Shown piece after piece: positions 30,511-56,673 of a stretch of 64,000 bases of DNA. The stretch's first letter is position 1, and the number at the start of each line of letters is the position of its first letter. The notes under the pieces were generated by a model that saw nothing but the letters and a program-made list of their open reading frames with translations, searched no databases and was not told where the DNA came from. A program made the position numbers and the translations under genes. The DNA comes from Gelidibacter algens (GTDB taxonomy: Bacteria > Bacteroidota > Bacteroidia > Flavobacteriales > Flavobacteriaceae): the NCBI RefSeq assembly GCF_001678675.1, contig NZ_LZRN01000006.1, forward strand, positions 1-64,000, in the 5' to 3' direction.

Positions 30511-30918
30511 CCTGCCGTCTTTAAACTCTTTCCGGAGCTTAATCCAGCTCCTTTTGAAGGAGGAGTGGCTTCTGCTTCCACAGAGAAGCATAAGCCAGCT
30601 GGTTTTAAAATGTCGTATGGATTATTAAACTTCTTAGTCTCTAAGTTTCGTGAAGGACTTGGTTCTTGAAAATGCCCCCTGACCTATCCGTAGCTTTTCG
30701 AAGCAGTCACATAAACCTCCTGACTCCATACTTCGGGCTTCAAGCTTCTAGCTTTTTCTATAACTTTCAATAAAATTCACCAAACTGATTTCCAATAGGT
30801 TGCCAATCCTTTCAGTATTTATATTTTATAAAAAAATAATAAGCAACTCTAATTAAAATTTTACTATGGATTATTTTTTATAAATTCGTTATAATTGAAC
30901 TCAACTAAACTACCCACA
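30511..30918. other. About 400-bp gene-free stretch with small hairpins
   Basis: Contains short inverted repeats, for example GGAGCT...AGCTCC at 30533-30550, in otherwise unremarkable DNA. A 63-codon open frame here shows no protein-like features. It must include the promoter of the gene at 30919. Confidence 0.4.
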
Positions 30919-31296
30919 ATGGAAATCACTGACTATATCCTTATTATATTAAAACTAATAGTAGGAATAAGTATTTTAAACGTCTGGTTGGTACAGCCTA
31001 ACAAGGCCACAAAATGGAGGGGAGGCAATGCCAAAACAATTGTTGAAGAATTTGAGGTGTATGGGCTTTCTAAAACATTTTGTTACGTTATAGGTTTTTT
31101 GAAGGTAAGTTTATCTTTGCTATTGCTGGCATCCATTTGGTTTGAGAGTTTGACAGGGTATGCCAGTTCAGGTTTGGCTCTTTTATTATTAGGCTCAATT
31201 ATTATGCATATTAAGATCAAAGACCCGATGTACAAATCGGTTCCAGCCACTTTATTTCTTCTGATGAATATTGCCATTGCGCTTTTAGCAGCTTAA
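30919..31296 (+). CDS. DoxX-like integral membrane protein
   Basis: 125 aa from ATG 30919 (MEITDYILIILKL). Four hydrophobic helices. HIKIKDPMYKSVPATLFLLM, near residue 95-115, matches the conserved last-helix region of DoxX/DoxD-like proteins. WLVQPNKATKWRGGNAK after helix 1 is the usual loop. Function in this family is poorly defined (some are subunits of quinone oxidoreductases). It converges on a paralog, and the two stop codons overlap at TTAA (31293-31296). Confidence 0.75.
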   Translation: MEITDYILIILKLIVGISILNVWLVQPNKATKWRGGNAKTIVEEFEVYGLSKTFCYVIGFLKVSLSLLLLASIWFESLTGYASSGLALLLLGSIIMHIKIKDPMYKSVPATLFLLMNIAIALLAA

Positions 31297-31643
31297 AAGT
31301 ATTTTGAAATTGTTTTAATAGCAATCAGCAGGTTGATCGCCGCAAAAGTAAACGCTGGTGACGATTTGATGAAATTATCTTTAATTTTAAGTCGCACAAT
31401 AAATCCGGCAAGCATCAACATACTCAATCCTATGGAAGCCACGAGCAATATGATTGGGCTAACATAGAGACCTACCAGCAAGCCGATGGCTCCCAAAAGT
31501 TGTAAATATCCCGTTAAACGTCTATACTGTGGTAAGCTATAGCGCATAAACTCTGATTTGATAAATTCTGAATAAAAGCAATTGATTCCGAAGTAGACGA
31601 ATGCCAAGCTAGAAAACCAGGTTAGTGCGGTGAGTAAATCCAA
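31293..31643 (-). CDS. DoxX family membrane protein, convergent paralog
   Basis: 116 aa, four hydrophobic helices. RLKIKDNFIKSSPAFTFAAI corresponds to the HIKIKDPMYKSVPATLF stretch of the gene facing it, so the two are paralogs. The start MDLLTALTWFSSLAF places helix 1 normally. The gene is monocistronic with its promoter between 31644 and 31896. Substrate or partner unknown. Confidence 0.78.
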   Translation of the reverse strand: MDLLTALTWFSSLAFVYFGINCFYSEFIKSEFMRYSLPQYRRLTGYLQLLGAIGLLVGLYVSPIILLVASIGLSMLMLAGFIVRLKIKDNFIKSSPAFTFAAINLLIAIKTISKYF

Positions 31644-31862
31644 AAGTTTTAATCAAAGATACAAAATTGTACAAGGAAATGTCATGAAAGTGGCTATTCC
31701 ATTGTAATTCGAGTTCCTCTTTTTTAAGCCCTTTCGTTGGTGTTCTTATGGAAGTGCAGGAGGGAAGCATAATGGAATGAAATGGAATAAAAGTTATAAA
31801 GCATTGAACCAAAATTGTAGTTTTTTGGACTAAAAGCACAATCATTTAATTTTAAGTTGTTT

Positions 31863-31870
31863 TAGTTTTG
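31863..31870 (+). promoter_or_regulatory. Candidate -7 box before the DUF4242 gene
   Basis: TAGTTTTG fits TANNTTTG and lies 26 bp before the ATG at 31897. No clear -33 TTTG at the standard distance was found. Confidence 0.4.
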
Positions 31871-31896
31871 AAGTATGAACATTTAAAACATAGATC

Positions 31897-32265
31897 ATGA
31901 AAACAATCAAATTAGTTTTAATCCTTCTTGTATTTACTCTAAATTATGCACAAGCACAAAATCAAACAACCTCTGAAAACAATAGCCTTATGAAAACTTA
32001 TGTGATCGAACGTATTATTCCAGGAGCAGGAGACTTAACGGTAGAACAACTAAAAGGAATCTCTCAAACGTCCTGTTCTGTACTGGAAGAAATGGGACCA
32101 AAAATTGAATGGCAACAAAGTTATGTTACAGGAGATAAAGTGTACTGTGTTTACAAAGCAGAAAATATCACATTAATTGAGGAGCATGCTAAAAAAGGAG
32201 GATTTCCTGCAAATTCGATAAGTGAAGTTAAAACTATAATTAGTCCTGCAACGGCTAAACTATAG
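31897..32265 (+). CDS. Exported DUF4242 (nickel-binding-like) protein
   Basis: 122 aa. A signal peptide (MKTIKLVLILLVFTLNYAQA) is followed by one DUF4242 domain: TYVIERIIPGAGDLTVEQL, IEWQQSYVTGDKVYCVYKAE and EEHAKKGGFPANSISEV. The family has a ferredoxin-like fold; the Streptomyces member SCO4226 binds nickel. Export is notable since most members are cytoplasmic. The next gene encodes a regulator that begins with the same domain, so the two may bind the same ligand. It has its own terminator 20 bp after its stop. Confidence 0.8.
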   Translation: MKTIKLVLILLVFTLNYAQAQNQTTSENNSLMKTYVIERIIPGAGDLTVEQLKGISQTSCSVLEEMGPKIEWQQSYVTGDKVYCVYKAENITLIEEHAKKGGFPANSISEVKTIISPATAKL

Positions 32266-32354: not shown

Positions 32355-33452
32355 ATGCCAATATATATGGATTTTCATGATTTGCCTGATGGTGTTACGG
32401 CGGCACATATTGCAGAAATGCATCAAGCAGATTTAAAAATTGAACATAAATATAAGTGTCGTGGATTAACCTATTGGTGTGATGAAAGACGCCAAACCGC
32501 TTTTTGCTTAATAGAGGCTCCCAATGAACAAGCCATTAAAGAACTCCATGAAAAATCTCACGGAGCTGTACCACAACGCATTATTGAAGTTAATGACATA
32601 CTCGTTGAATCGTTTTTAGGTCGAATTCAAGATCCTGAAAACCCGCAAAACACAAAACTTAATATTATAAACGATTCCGCATTTAGGATTTTAATGGTTG
32701 TAAATATCAAAAAGCAGGAATTAAGAACTGAAAATATAGACATATTGCAAGCCGCTCTTAGAGGTTATAATAAATCAATACTTAACATTGCCATCAACCA
32801 TAAAGGACGTGTTGTTAAACAAGTAGCAAATTCATTTCTAATATCATTTACAAGTGTTGCAAATGCCGTGGAAAGTGCTATTAAAATTCAAGAATTGTAT
32901 AATTGTGTCATTACCCCAGATGTCGAATTTAAGATTGGAATAAGTGCCGGAATTCCTGTAACAGCTAAAGAAAGCATTTTTGAAACATCTATACAAGAAG
33001 CCAACTATCTGTCTTATGTTACTAACGGAAAAATAATAGTATCACCAGAAGTTGAAGATTTATATGAGCATGAAACTCAAAGCAATCCAATTAAGATAAG
33101 GGGCGTCATTGCATTAAATACTACAGACATGGAGTTCTTAATTCGCCTATTTGAATATACCGAGAAGGTATGGACAAATTCAAATATAACCGTTGTTGAT
33201 TATTATAAGAATTTAGGTTATAGTAAATCAAAATTGTATCGCACCATGATGTCTATAATGGGTCAGTCTCCTAACTACTTTTTAAGAGATTACAGACTGA
33301 ATAAAGCGCTTGAATTATTAGACAGACACCTCTCAAATATTTCTGAAATTGCTGATCAAACAGGATTTAGTAGCCCATCGTATTTTTCAAAATGTTTTCA
33401 GGATACTTATGGGATATTACCATCTACTTATGTTAAGCAACTAGCTTATTAG
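32355..33452 (+). CDS. DUF4242 / degenerate nucleotide cyclase / AraC fusion regulator, copy 1
   Basis: 365 aa, three parts. Residues 1-90 are DUF4242 (MPIYMDFHDLPDG, CRGLTYWCDERRQTAFCL). Residues about 108-240 follow the class III nucleotidyl cyclase pattern (FRILMVVNI, GRVVKQVANSFLISFTSV, AVESAIKIQEL, FKIGISAGIPV), but the metal-binding Asp after strand 1 and other catalytic residues are absent, so it should be inactive and act as a sensor or dimeriser. Residues about 268-362 are an AraC HTH pair (ISEIADQTGFSSPSYFSKCF). Cytoplasmic. A second copy lies at 53510. The likely target is the adjacent exported DUF4242 gene; ligand unknown. Confidence 0.85.
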   Translation: MPIYMDFHDLPDGVTAAHIAEMHQADLKIEHKYKCRGLTYWCDERRQTAFCLIEAPNEQAIKELHEKSHGAVPQRIIEVNDILVESFLGRIQDPENPQNTKLNIINDSAFRILMVVNIKKQELRTENIDILQAALRGYNKSILNIAINHKGRVVKQVANSFLISFTSVANAVESAIKIQELYNCVITPDVEFKIGISAGIPVTAKESIFETSIQEANYLSYVTNGKIIVSPEVEDLYEHETQSNPIKIRGVIALNTTDMEFLIRLFEYTEKVWTNSNITVVDYYKNLGYSKSKLYRTMMSIMGQSPNYFLRDYRLNKALELLDRHLSNISEIADQTGFSSPSYFSKCFQDTYGILPSTYVKQLAY

Positions 33453-52572: not shown

Positions 52573-53146
52573 TTATTTTCGGGCATCGCCTTTTCTGATG
52601 CGGCTTAAGGTTTCTTGTGTCATCCCCAAATAAGACGCGATATGACCTAAGGGTACTTGATGGGAAATATCCGGAAACTCGGCCAGCATATAATCATAAC
52701 GTTCCTTTGCGGTTTGAAACTGAAGGGCGTTAAGTTTATTGACCATTTTTGTCAGCATCTCGGTAGTGACCAATCGGCCTAATTTTTCCATTTTGTGGTA
52801 TTTGGCAAACAGTAGATCGAGGTCTTCCTTAGGGATACAATAGACAATTGAATTTTCGAGCACTTCTAAATTGTATAAACTCGGCGTTTGTTGAAAAAAG
52901 CTGTCTGCACTGGTCATAAACTTACCAACGCCAAAAAACCATTGGGTAATTTCTTTGCCATTCTCATTGAGATAATAACTTCGGCCCATGCCTTGTTCCA
53001 CAAAATATAGGGATTTGCAAACCTCACCTTGACGGACAAGAATTTGATTTTTTGGTCAGCGATTGTTTCTTGAAATGCGCAAGAATATCAGTCAACTCGT
53101 CTGGTTTTAAAGGTACTAAGGAGATGAGGAAGTCAGTGATATTCAT
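52573..53146 (-). pseudogene. Crp/Fnr-family regulator gene with frameshift
   Basis: The 3' frame (52573-53001) gives FFGVGKFMTSADSFFQQTPS and the HTH LGHIASYLGMTQETLSRIR. Upstream, ATG 53146 starts MNITDFLISLVPLKPDELTD, but it stops early; the intact frame ILVRQGEVCKSLYFVEQG lies between. The run of six T (A on the coding strand) at 53048-53053 being one base too long accounts for the break. If it were five, a normal Crp-like protein of about 190 aa results. It is a recent pseudogene or a sequencing error. Confidence 0.85.
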
Positions 53147-53509: not shown

Positions 53510-54601
53510 ATGCCAATCTATATGGATTTCCATGATCTTCCTGACGGCGTTTCAGCAAAGCACGTTGCCGAAATGCATCAAGCCGATTTAGAAATTGAAC
53601 ACAAATATAACTGTCGTGGCTTGACCTATTGGTGCGATGAAAAACGACAAACTGCGTTCTGCTTAATAGAAGCTCCCAACCAACAGGCGGTTTTAGATTT
53701 GCATCAAAATTCGCATGGTGCGGTGCCACAACGTATTATAGAAGTGAATGATACCATTGTAGAATCATTTTTAGGGCGCATAGAAGACCCAAAAAAATCA
53801 AAAAACACAAGCCTGAATATTATTAACGATCCTGCGTTTAGAACCATCATGGTGGTTAAACTAAAACATAAGGTCTTACGAACCTCCAGTTATGATATTT
53901 TAAACGCCGCTATTAGAGGGTATACAACCTCCATAAAAACCTTGACCTCTGAATTTCATGGACGTTTAGTTCGGCAGGAATCCAATACCTTCTTGATATC
54001 CTTTGACTCTGTCACGGATGCGATGCAGTGTGGTGTAAAAATTCAAGAAGTACACAATTGTGTCATTACGCCAGATTTAGAGTTTAAAATAGGCATTAGT
54101 GGTGGCGTACCTGTAGCTAAAAGCGAAGGGCTTTTTGAAGACACCATAAAAATCTCCGATTATTTGAGCGATATCGTCAACGGCGATTTTTCTATTACAG
54201 AAGATGTAAGAGATCTTTACGAAGGGGAAAACCAAAATATATCTATACCCGAAAATAAAGCCATACGGGTTTTATCGAGCACCGATGTTGATTTTATGAC
54301 GCACTTGATGGCCTATACGGAAAGTGCTTGGTCGCAAACGACAACAAATGTCAATGATTTTGAAGAAAGTTTAGGTTTTAGTAAATCTAAATTATACCGA
54401 ACCATGATGCATTTGGTTGGGAAACCACCTAATATCTTTTTAAGAGAGTATCGCCTAAATAAAGCCTTGGGATTGTTGGAAAAACAACGCTCTAATATTT
54501 CTGAAATAGCCTATCAAACAGGCTTTAGTAGTCCGGCTTACTTTTCAAAATGCTTCCATAAAAAATATGGAATTCTGCCTTCCAATATGTATACTTCCTA
54601 A
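53510..54601 (+). CDS. DUF4242 / degenerate nucleotide cyclase / AraC fusion regulator, copy 2
   Basis: 363 aa, collinear with the protein at 32355. DUF4242 is near-identical (MPIYMDFHDLPDGV; CRGLTYWCDEKRQTAFCL). The cyclase-like domain is more diverged (FRTIMVVKLK; HGRLVRQESNTFLISFDSV; FKIGISGGVPV) and also lacks the catalytic Asp. The HTH is well conserved (NISEIAYQTGFSSPAYFSKC). It differs most in the middle and linker, which suggests a different input with similar DNA binding. It precedes a cupin and a flavoprotein gene, probable targets. Confidence 0.85.
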   Translation: MPIYMDFHDLPDGVSAKHVAEMHQADLEIEHKYNCRGLTYWCDEKRQTAFCLIEAPNQQAVLDLHQNSHGAVPQRIIEVNDTIVESFLGRIEDPKKSKNTSLNIINDPAFRTIMVVKLKHKVLRTSSYDILNAAIRGYTTSIKTLTSEFHGRLVRQESNTFLISFDSVTDAMQCGVKIQEVHNCVITPDLEFKIGISGGVPVAKSEGLFEDTIKISDYLSDIVNGDFSITEDVRDLYEGENQNISIPENKAIRVLSSTDVDFMTHLMAYTESAWSQTTTNVNDFEESLGFSKSKLYRTMMHLVGKPPNIFLREYRLNKALGLLEKQRSNISEIAYQTGFSSPAYFSKCFHKKYGILPSNMYTS

Positions 54602-54751
54602 ATAAATTACTGTTTCACAAATAATTACCCATTACTTCTTGTCTGGTCTAAAACTATTATTATTTGGTCTATTTGTAGATTCATAGCGCATTTTTCTATG
54701 CTACTTTTGATGTAAATCAATTTATAACCACAACAATTAAATTCAAAAGAC

Positions 54752-55138
54752 ATGAAAATTTCAAAAGACGACATCGAGGTGAAAATGGAGATTCCTGGCG
54801 CTATTCTACGTCAAAGAACAAACTTTGGAGATGCCACAGGACTAGGGAAAATGAGTGCAGAATATTTTAGTTTGTCTGCAGGAGTGGACACAACGCCCTT
54901 ATTTATGGGACTTGAAGGGAATCTATGCCAATGCCCACATTGGGGTTACTTGTTAAGCGGCGAGATTACTACAACTGATGCCAACGGAATGGAAGAGAAT
55001 GTAGGTTCAAAGGAATTGTTTTATTGGCCGGCAGGACACAATGTAAAGGTCAATGCAGATGCGGAAATCGTGATGTTCAGTCCTCAGAAAGAGCACACAC
55101 ATGTCATCAATCACATGATTGAAATGACCAAAAGTTAA
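54752..55138 (+). CDS. Cupin-like small protein
   Basis: 128 aa. Strand-rich with CQCPHWGYLLSGEITTT near residue 58 and KELFYWPAGHNVKVNADAEI near 90, the two halves of a cupin barrel; His in PHWGY and in AGHN are candidate metal ligands, and CQCPH has two extra Cys. No signal peptide. It lies between the fusion regulator and the flavoprotein gene, both on the same strand, with separate upstream spaces. It may be a small sensor or dioxygenase-like protein; not certain. Confidence 0.7.
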   Translation: MKISKDDIEVKMEIPGAILRQRTNFGDATGLGKMSAEYFSLSAGVDTTPLFMGLEGNLCQCPHWGYLLSGEITTTDANGMEENVGSKELFYWPAGHNVKVNADAEIVMFSPQKEHTHVINHMIEMTKS

Positions 55139-55287: not shown

Positions 55288-56673
55288 ATGTCAAATTCAG
55301 TAAAATCACTAGACCCTTCAATAATTGAAGCATTTGCCTCACAATTAAGAGGAAGCCTCATCCAACCATCGCACGCAGACTATCATGACACACGAAAAGT
55401 CTACAACGCCATGATTGATAAACGCCCAGGACTTTTCGCTATGTGTGTAGACGTTGCCGATGTAATTGCATCCGTGAATTTTGGCAGAGAAAACAATTTA
55501 CTTGTTGCTGTCAGAGGCGGCGGACATAATGGCGGCGGATTAGGTCTTTGTGATGGCGGCTTAGTCATCGATTTATCTGGACTTAAATCGGTTCGTGTAG
55601 ATACCTCAAACAATACCGTGAGAGTCGGTGGCGGAAACCTTTGGGGAGAAGTAGACCACGCCACACATCCTTTCGGATTGGCGGTGCCTTCAGGCATCAT
55701 TTCTACAACTGGTGTTGGTGGCTTGACCCTCGGTGGTGGCGTTGGCCATTTATCTCGGAAATATGGATTGACCATCGATAATTTATTGGAAGCAGATTTG
55801 GTGCTGGCGGATGGCTCTTTTGTTACGGTCAATAAAGACCAAAAAACAGATCTGTTTTGGGCAATTCGTGGTGGTGGCGGAAACTTCGGCATTGTCACGT
55901 CATTTAAATTTCAAGCGCATCCTTTAAAAACAGTGATTGGTGGACCCACCTTATTTCCTATTGAAAAAACAGAAGAGATTATGGCATGGTATCATGATTT
56001 TATCATGAATGCGCCAGATGACTTAAATGGTTTTATCGCGACGATGGTTATTCCTGGAGCGCCTTTTCCTAAAGAATTGCACAACAAAAAATTCTGCGCC
56101 ATTGTATGGTGCTATACGGGGAGTCAAGAAGAGTTTGACACACTTTTCAAAACAGTATTAGACCTCAATCCCGTGTTTGCGCATGTTGGCGAAATGCCTT
56201 ATCCTGCAATACAGGCCCTATTTGACGGCTTTTTCCCTCACGGTTTACAATGGTATTGGCGAGCCGATTTCTTTAAAGAATTAAGTCCAGAAGTAAGCGT
56301 GCAACATTTAAAGTTCGGTTCTAAAATACCAACGCCCTTATCACAAATGCATTTATATCCTATCAGTGGTGCCGCAAGTAGAGTAGGCGCGGAAGAAACG
56401 CCTTGGGCGTATCGAGATGCCAATTATGCAGGCGTCATTGTTGGCGTAGATCCAGATCCTAAAAATGCGGATACAATTACGAATTGGTGTAAAGACTATT
56501 GGGAAGCATTACATCCCTATTCATCGGGCGGTGCGTATTCCAATTTTTTGATGGATGAAGGGCAAGAACGTGTGAAAGCCAGTTACAAACATAATTACGA
56601 GCGATTGTTAAAAATCAAAGCCGCCTATGATCCAGGGAATTTATTTAGGGTGAATCAGAATATTAAGGTGTGA
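55288..56673 (+). CDS. FAD-binding berberine-bridge-type oxidoreductase
   Basis: 461 aa. PCMH-type FAD domain: RGGGHNGGGLGLCDGGLVID cited to its His, where His is the expected 8-alpha-histidyl FAD anchor, then GGGNLWGEVDHA, GVGGLTLGGGVGHLSRKYG and the C-terminal BBE-type end (AYDPGNLFRVNQNIKV). The Cys of bicovalent BBE enzymes is replaced by Ser/Thr (ISTTGVGG), so only one covalent link is expected. The family oxidises sugars, phenolics or lactones with O2. No signal peptide, so cytoplasmic. Substrate unknown. Confidence 0.88.
   Translation: MSNSVKSLDPSIIEAFASQLRGSLIQPSHADYHDTRKVYNAMIDKRPGLFAMCVDVADVIASVNFGRENNLLVAVRGGGHNGGGLGLCDGGLVIDLSGLKSVRVDTSNNTVRVGGGNLWGEVDHATHPFGLAVPSGIISTTGVGGLTLGGGVGHLSRKYGLTIDNLLEADLVLADGSFVTVNKDQKTDLFWAIRGGGGNFGIVTSFKFQAHPLKTVIGGPTLFPIEKTEEIMAWYHDFIMNAPDDLNGFIATMVIPGAPFPKELHNKKFCAIVWCYTGSQEEFDTLFKTVLDLNPVFAHVGEMPYPAIQALFDGFFPHGLQWYWRADFFKELSPEVSVQHLKFGSKIPTPLSQMHLYPISGAASRVGAEETPWAYRDANYAGVIVGVDPDPKNADTITNWCKDYWEALHPYSSGGAYSNFLMDEGQERVKASYKHNYERLLKIKAAYDPGNLFRVNQNIKV

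Follow-up and report, generated by a model that had tools for sequence, protein, structure and literature searches.

What does a protein sense, and which genes would it control, when a SCO4226-like (DUF4242) domain, a segment resembling class III nucleotide cyclases and an AraC-type DNA-binding domain are joined in a single chain? The question is raised by a gene for a protein of 365 aa, here named regulator 1, in a 64,000-nucleotide stretch of Gelidibacter algens (contig NZ_LZRN01000006.1; hereafter the window). Based on sequence comparison, we consider it fairly probable that regulator 1 is a one-component transcription activator of the adjacent operon, in which binding of a ligand by the sensor would be relayed through a catalytically dead cyclase domain to an AraC-type domain on a repeat in the DNA.

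Domain Architecture

The regulator and its parts, and a second regulator in the window, are as follows.

32355..33452 (+): regulator 1, DUF4242, cyclase homology domain and AraC helix-turn-helix (HTH); 365 aa, ATG start
32355..32591 (+): residues 1-79, SCO4226-like sensor domain, with D6, H8, H23, D26, C51, and H65 nearly invariant
32592..32639 (+): residues 80-95, linker, conserved in rhizobial DUF4242-cyclases too
32679..33083 (+): residues 109-243, class III cyclase homology domain, with N117, N159, and Y218 in place of Asp, Asp, and Arg
33120..33440 (+): residues 256-362, AraC-type DNA-binding domain (HTH_18, E 3.4e-18)
53510..54601 (+): regulator 2, a paralog with the same three domains (62% identity to regulator 1 over residues 1-359)

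The first-pass annotation had placed a DUF4242 domain at the N-terminus and an AraC output domain at the other end, and Pfam bears out both: residues 4-79 match PF14026 (SCO4226-like; E 1.2e-21, 77.1 bits against a cut-off of 28.5), and residues 285-361 match HTH_18 (66.1 bits against a cut-off of 33.6). Relatives of regulator 1 share its N-terminus, MPIYMD or a near-identical sequence. The middle part of the protein has no Pfam match above cut-off; its reading as a cyclase-like domain stands on a profile built from 42 relatives, on an AlphaFold2 model of the whole protein (80 input sequences; mean pLDDT 93.7, pTM 0.91), and on the Foldseek match of that model to the adenylyl cyclase Ma1120. 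The profile matches the class III cyclases 3mr7 (1.3e-15), Ma1120 (7.6e-14), and LipJ (1.6e-9) across residues 103-243, and phmmer with the isolated middle segment also retrieves Ma1120 from the PDB (E 0.0016). Foldseek ranks photoactivated adenylyl cyclases first (5mbc, E 9.5e-9), followed by Ma1120 (5d15_A, TM 0.68 of target) and an AraC-type domain (6swi); because the whole-chain fit is loose (rmsd 16.2 A for 5mbc, over a long alignment), we read no more from the top matches than a layout of sensor plus cyclase. Like regulator 1, the photoactivated adenylyl cyclases bPAC and OaPAC have an N-terminal sensor joined to a class III cyclase domain; unlike regulator 1, they carry a BLUF flavin light sensor, are active enzymes, and have no HTH. 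The BLUF domain has a ferredoxin-like fold.

The catalytic Asp that had been reported missing from the cyclase-like domain is indeed absent, and the loss extends further: in alignment with intact cyclases, both metal-binding Asp residues are replaced (N117 and N159), as is the Arg of the AAR motif (Y218). Judged by its aligned residues, the window protein is predicted not to be an active class III cyclase, the two Asp and the Arg all being absent. The assertion that these three domains are never usually found together was wrong, as the family is common in Bacteroidota and a paralog lies 20 kb away in the same window; with that paralog and many full-length relatives in hand, we rejected rarity as a property of the architecture.

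Distribution of the Regulator Family

Among 199 genomes of the host's family, 49 contain some match to the regulator at E <= 1e-3, and 40 contain an open-frame match that runs from residue 1 past residue 200 (counted from rows). The family-search set retained 59 proteins of 340-400 aa, leaving out L098 (divergent, 357 aa), L062 (a fragmented gene in G113), L085 (double DUF4242), and proteins that consist of the cyclase alone or of the cyclase homology domain (CHD) and AraC domain; alignment A1 comprises 42 of these 59 proteins. Scanning of named genomes yielded 569 confirmed relatives; the best 80 of the 569 loci were kept, with open frames that are all 356-377 aa. Nearly all of these best 80 are labeled as Bacteroidota or Balneolota, with L147 and L151 labeled as Proteobacteria MAGs, and at least two of the 80 (L115 and L176) share one genome. 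Alignment A2 contains 78 named loci (the best 80 of 569 minus L104 and L167) and the two window proteins. The literature searched, with subscription papers and preprints outside its scope, contains no account of this regulator family, its domain combination or its operator; the component parts are already known, and the combination and the operator are new as far as this literature extends.

Origin of the Dead Cyclase Domain

Residues 1-251 of regulator 1, used as a tblastn query against plasmids, matched 28 records, 15 of which span at least 80% of the query (identity about 26-36%). The DUF4242-cyclases of rhizobial plasmids are 272-280 aa long, and some are annotated as ‘nickel-binding protein’. 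Three of the 28 plasmid proteins were read, from Rhizobium (275 aa), Agrobacterium (272 aa), and Azospirillum (280 aa). They align with regulator 1 over residues 1-250 in the same order of sensor and cyclase, and stop where the HTH starts in regulator 1; unlike regulator 1, all three have intact catalytic motifs (the metal-Asp motif FTDIVGST or FTDIVDFT, GDG, and AAR or ASR) and no HTH. The Rhizobium and Agrobacterium proteins exceed the Pfam cut-offs for both PF14026 and Guanylate_cyc, and the linker EV..VE.FLGRI.DP is common to these two and regulator 1, which suggests that the fusion of sensor and cyclase is old and that the linker carries the signal. Streptomyces homologs annotated as cyclases are listed in the report on SCO4226 as well (PMC4186839).

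Given three plasmid proteins with intact motifs, no HTH, and the same domain order, the regulator looks like a cyclase turned transducer, and its dead cyclase domain probably descends from a live one. In a tree of cyclase domains, the plasmid proteins and live cyclases are placed among the regulators; as the deep forks are weakly supported, we take the direction of change (from live to dead) from function. Both metal Asp and the Arg are all retained in two of the 80 rows of A2, drawn from the best 80 of 569 loci (L152 and L177), and both metal Asp in two of the 59 proteins of the family set (L078 and L079); nucleotide binding or turnover may thus survive in a few members.

Five proteins encoded in the family genomes (L089, L090, L091, L093, and L095) share the dead cyclase middle and the HTH with regulator 1 but have neither the sensor domain nor neighboring targets. 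These CHD-AraC proteins nest inside the regulator family in the tree, beside L122 (support 100/100), and four of the five genes occupy the syntenic slot of full regulators (clusters c3, c12, and c4-c7, with c12 missing in L095). There is no target gene within 8-11 kb around any of the five; thus, sensor and targets seem to have been lost together.

Sensor Domain

The nearest solved relative of the sensor domain is the nickel-binding protein SCO4226 of Streptomyces coelicolor (PDB 4oi3, 4oi6; E 8.8e-16), a stand-alone protein of 82 aa that is homologous to the N-terminal domain of regulator 1. The sensor has the highest mean majority frequency of the three domains (0.69), and the middle the lowest (0.45). 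Among the 80 rows of A2 (from the best 80 of 569 loci), D6, D26, W41, C51, and H65 are present in 80, H8 and H69 in 79, and H23 and D43 in 78; D6, H8, H23, D26, W41, D43, C51, and H65 are found in SCO4226 too. The dimer core of SCO4226 comprises M5, W41, Y50, L52, and V78 (PMC4186839), and D6, H8, and C51 are accordingly expected to point toward the helices bearing H23, D26, H65, and H69; the invariant residues would then lie near one another, as judged from strand alternation and these core residues. The Azospirillum DUF4242-cyclase (L191) lacks D6, H8, and H23, so this His/Asp/Cys cluster is not retained wherever the fusion occurs. In published expression studies, SCO4226 is lower under oxidative stress in one report and DUF4242 genes are lower in two Staphylococcus aureus lists (PMC4991794, PMC9796851, PMC8158120); we set these changes aside, as they give no pointer to the ligand.

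Predicted Target Genes

Three genes in the window are predicted targets.

31897..32265 (+): small SCO4226/DUF4242 protein, 122 aa (PF14026, E 5.5e-25; this gene type is adjacent in other loci)
54752..55138 (+): cupin-like protein (Cupin_2, E 0.015, below cut-off; homologs adjoin regulators elsewhere)
55288..56673 (+): BBE-type FAD-linked oxidase, 461 aa (FAD_binding_4, E 7.4e-29; BBE, E 1.5e-13)

The N-terminus of the small DUF4242 protein resembles a signal peptide by eye, and the oxidase is the sole copy at E <= 1e-20 in the host genome. Five target classes (BBE-type FAD oxidase, small DUF4242 protein, bacterial globin, SnoaL-like protein, and cupin) were set on the family-genome loci first and then tallied on the named loci. 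Among the best 80 of the 569 loci, 63 have a target within three ORFs downstream of the regulator on the same strand and none has one on the opposite strand; 17 of the 80 are without any named target within this distance. Upstream, a target occurs on the same strand in four and on the opposite strand in none of the 77 loci with upstream ORFs (again from the best 80 of 569). A search of 198 genomes of the phylum with PF14026 found the regulator in nine, the small DUF4242 protein in 18, and both in six, in five of which the two genes are within 2 kb of each other; these counts are tallied from rows, with regulator and small protein separated by open-frame length alone.

Predicted Operator and Promoter Box

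Upstream of the predicted targets in the window are two direct repeats, each followed by a sigmaA -7 box.

31805..31841 (+): predicted operator 1, direct repeat of 21-bp period, 5' of the small DUF4242 gene and regulator 1 (best profile site, genome pattern match)
31863..31870 (+): sigmaA -7 box TAGTTTTG, 21 bp after operator 1 (consensus TAnnTTTG; PMC9723704)
54644..54680 (+): predicted operator 2, direct repeat of 21-bp period (profile site, pattern match, autocorrelation)
54702..54709 (+): sigmaA -7 box TACTTTTG, 21 bp after operator 2

The first-pass annotation had singled out the DNA at 31644-31896 as a place where the regulator might bind, a suggestion that comparison supports through the conserved direct repeat at 31805-31841. 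The comparison used 70 intergenic sequences: 66 downstream of regulators (from the best 80 of 569 loci) in which the next gene is on the same strand, is not a regulator, and is 60-400 bp away (near-copies included), two from the window, and two from upstream of a DUF4242 gene. With no motif model, the best 14-base self-match in these 70 sequences averages 9.31 at a spacing of 21, while the other 36 spacings (8 to 44) give 7.20-7.96 and base-shuffled sequences 7.67. A repeat with at least 11 of 14 matches at spacing 21 is present in 17/70, versus 9/258 for other intergenic regions of the same loci. The signal was replicated in 34 further family-genome sequences, from which eight family-set regulators matching named ones had been removed beforehand (mean 9.21; 8/34 at spacing 21, 0-1/34 at other tested spacings). 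A site upstream of the regulator genes was also considered and rejected as too weak (6/68 at spacing 21 versus 1-4 at 19, 20, 22, and 23).

The fitted operator consensus is 37 bp long, TGA.CCAAAATTAC..TT.TTTGAATTAAATGT.G.A. A profile trained on 45 sequences was applied to 25 held-out ones: 20 exceeded the top score among 210 control strands, and the other five did not; the held-out split was made by hand from record names, some of which read only ‘Bacteroidetes bacterium’. A strict pattern finds no other mismatch-free occurrence in the 4.5 Mb host genome (reversed control 0); since the pattern was derived from both window sites, these two match by construction, and only the scarcity elsewhere is informative. 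A candidate third operator (C24:13265, one mismatch) in the host genome falls within a gene read by eye as that for elongation factor Ts, and was dismissed as chance. Half-sites of the GG or GA class tend to go with different identities of HTH residue 297 (T in 7/10, K in 36/45; 13 mixed); the correspondence tracks phylogeny and was dropped.

The sigmaA -7 box has the consensus TAnnTTTG and is located at -12 to -5 according to PMC9723704, from which the repeat would cover about -70 to -34. TAnnTTTG occurs within 40 bp of the site in 40 of the 70 sequences and starts exactly 21 bp after it in 35, whereas in shuffled sequences the count at exactly 21 bp has a mean of 0.06 and a maximum of 3; the TANNTTTG box is missing within 40 bp of the site in 30 of the 70. 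Grouped according to the gene that follows, 9/11 sequences before an oxidase have the box at 21 bp, as do 8/15 before a globin, 5/5 before SnoaL, and 5/18 before a small DUF4242 gene. After thinning of the regulators to below 70% identity, 22/52 sequences have the box at 21 bp and 11/52 the strong repeat, and below 50% identity the counts are 10/24 and 4/24 (11/14 matches). A site that ends at about -34 is in the usual place for AraC-type activators, and the direct repeat bound by AraC near its promoter is comparable to the predicted operator. The AraC-family activators AraC, ToxT, and Rns have an AraC-type HTH as in regulator 1, but their sensor is of another type.

Proposed Mechanism and Alternatives

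We propose that a small ligand or metal would bind the DUF4242 domain, most likely at the cluster of D6, H8, H23, D26, C51, and H65, and that the signal would travel via the conserved linker into the cyclase homology domain. The latter would make no cyclic nucleotide, and would dimerize and change shape in the manner of sensor-cyclase enzymes. The paired AraC domains would occupy the direct repeat of 21-bp period, with the near half ending at about -34, and the bound regulator would help RNA polymerase to start the adjacent operon; we prefer activation over repression from the position of the site alone. The operon products (small DUF4242 protein, BBE-type flavin oxidase, globin, cupin, and SnoaL) would probably bind or oxidize the sensed compound. 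In a more specific form, which we advance only tentatively, a sensor-gated cyclase became a transcription switch, with the dead enzyme domain retained as transducer, and its His/Asp/Cys cluster, unlike the nickel sites published for the surface of SCO4226, is the true sensing site and detects a small reactive compound (e.g., a thiol or an oxidizable aromatic) that the oxidase, globin, and DUF4242 neighbors remove.

The input to the regulator could be read in two other ways. Ni2+ might bind the DUF4242 domain as in SCO4226, with the regulator controlling sequestration by the small DUF4242 protein, whose gene frequently adjoins it. SCO4226 is the closest solved relative and its gene is induced by Ni2+ (PMC4186839); H23 and D43 are the published nickel ligands retained in regulator 1, and among the 80 rows of A2 (from the best 80 of 569 loci) 39 carry His74, close to the position of the H76 ligand. 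However, the surface nickel ligands H3, H12, H20, E38, and S46 of SCO4226 correspond to I, D, A, L, and R in the window protein, and of the Ni-1 ligands D43, S46, and H76 it keeps D43 alone (R46, I76, I77; both 76 and 77 were examined because the printed SCO4226 alignment stops at residue 69), the ligands being those published in PMC4186839. In the same 80 rows from the best 80 of 569, S46 is present in two and His at 76 or 77 in none, and the window protein has Q74. The nickel affinity of SCO4226 is itself weak (Kd 10 uM) and its sites are on the surface (PMC4186839), and regulator 1 scores 48.8 bits against the NCBIfam equivalog NF033706, the cut-off of which is 125. The recurrent downstream classes scanned with Pfam are of oxidase, globin, cupin, SnoaL, and MddA types, not of metal transport, and include no nickel transporter. 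We rejected nickel sensing via the published sites because most of the ligands are gone, with the caveat of the His at 74 in 39 of the 80 rows, and we regard a nickel sensor of any such kind as unlikely. It is similarly improbable that the middle domain is the main input, as a nucleotide sensor that binds ATP, GTP or cyclic nucleotide without turnover. The cyclase fold is retained, and Arg at 218 is present in 41/80 and Asp at 159 in 17/80 (from the best 80 of 569), but the middle is the least conserved domain, with 6/135 columns at least 95% conserved versus 21/79 in the sensor, and both Asp and the Arg are gone in the window proteins.

On the output side, the regulator might repress the neighboring operon until the ligand releases it, as a site near the promoter could equally block polymerase. 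Where the -7 box is found, however, the site mostly ends 21 bp upstream of it, with no overlap of the box, and its end at about -34 is where AraC-type activators usually sit; a repressor is therefore doubtful. The regulator and the repeat are paired through comparison of sequences, and the repeat might belong to another regulator, its link with this family being passive. Against this, several lineages carry the repeat downstream of this regulator gene and, with at least 11/14 matches, it is rarer in intergenic regions elsewhere in these loci than beside the regulators (the counts given above), and we consider this reading very unlikely.

If the one-component activator reading is true, a signaling enzyme has been reduced to a relay within a transcription factor, and the apparently live enzyme persists in other bacteria, making comparison of the two possible. 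A widespread protein family would also gain a predicted binding site in DNA and a predicted target operon, and a simple reporter could then serve to look for its ligand; the conserved set of DUF4242 residues is distinct from the nickel sites seen in the crystal structures.

Other Genes Near the Regulators

Tandem runs of two to four regulator copies occur at L053, L068, L070, L072, and L073, and also at L147, L149, and L177. The runs at L053, L068, L070, and L073 adjoin genes for a SoxA/TsdA-like cytochrome c, a Tat-type secreted protein, a DsrE-like protein, and a TauE exporter (Pfam was run on L068 only); these neighbors suggest sulfur chemistry. The next gene after the regulator in L104 encodes MddA (methanethiol S-methyltransferase; 350.7 bits against a cut-off of 270), and a look-alike, identified by eye, is next after the regulator in L103, L106, L138, and L148; no paper in the literature searched brings MddA, methanethiol, and AraC together. 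A protein with two DUF4242 stretches is encoded immediately after the regulator at L121 (7195-7827), and L085 is another double one.

For the window oxidase (55288-56673), the nearest named NCBIfam models are BagG/FevA2 and BagK/FevA1, with scores far under their cut-offs. The window also contains an ORF for a cNMP-binding (Crp-like) protein (52573-53001, - strand), which is 138-142 aa long versus 185 aa in the L046 homolog. Beside the small DUF4242 gene are two convergent DoxX_2 genes (30895-31296, + strand, and 31293-31643, - strand), with similar genes in L042 and L058.
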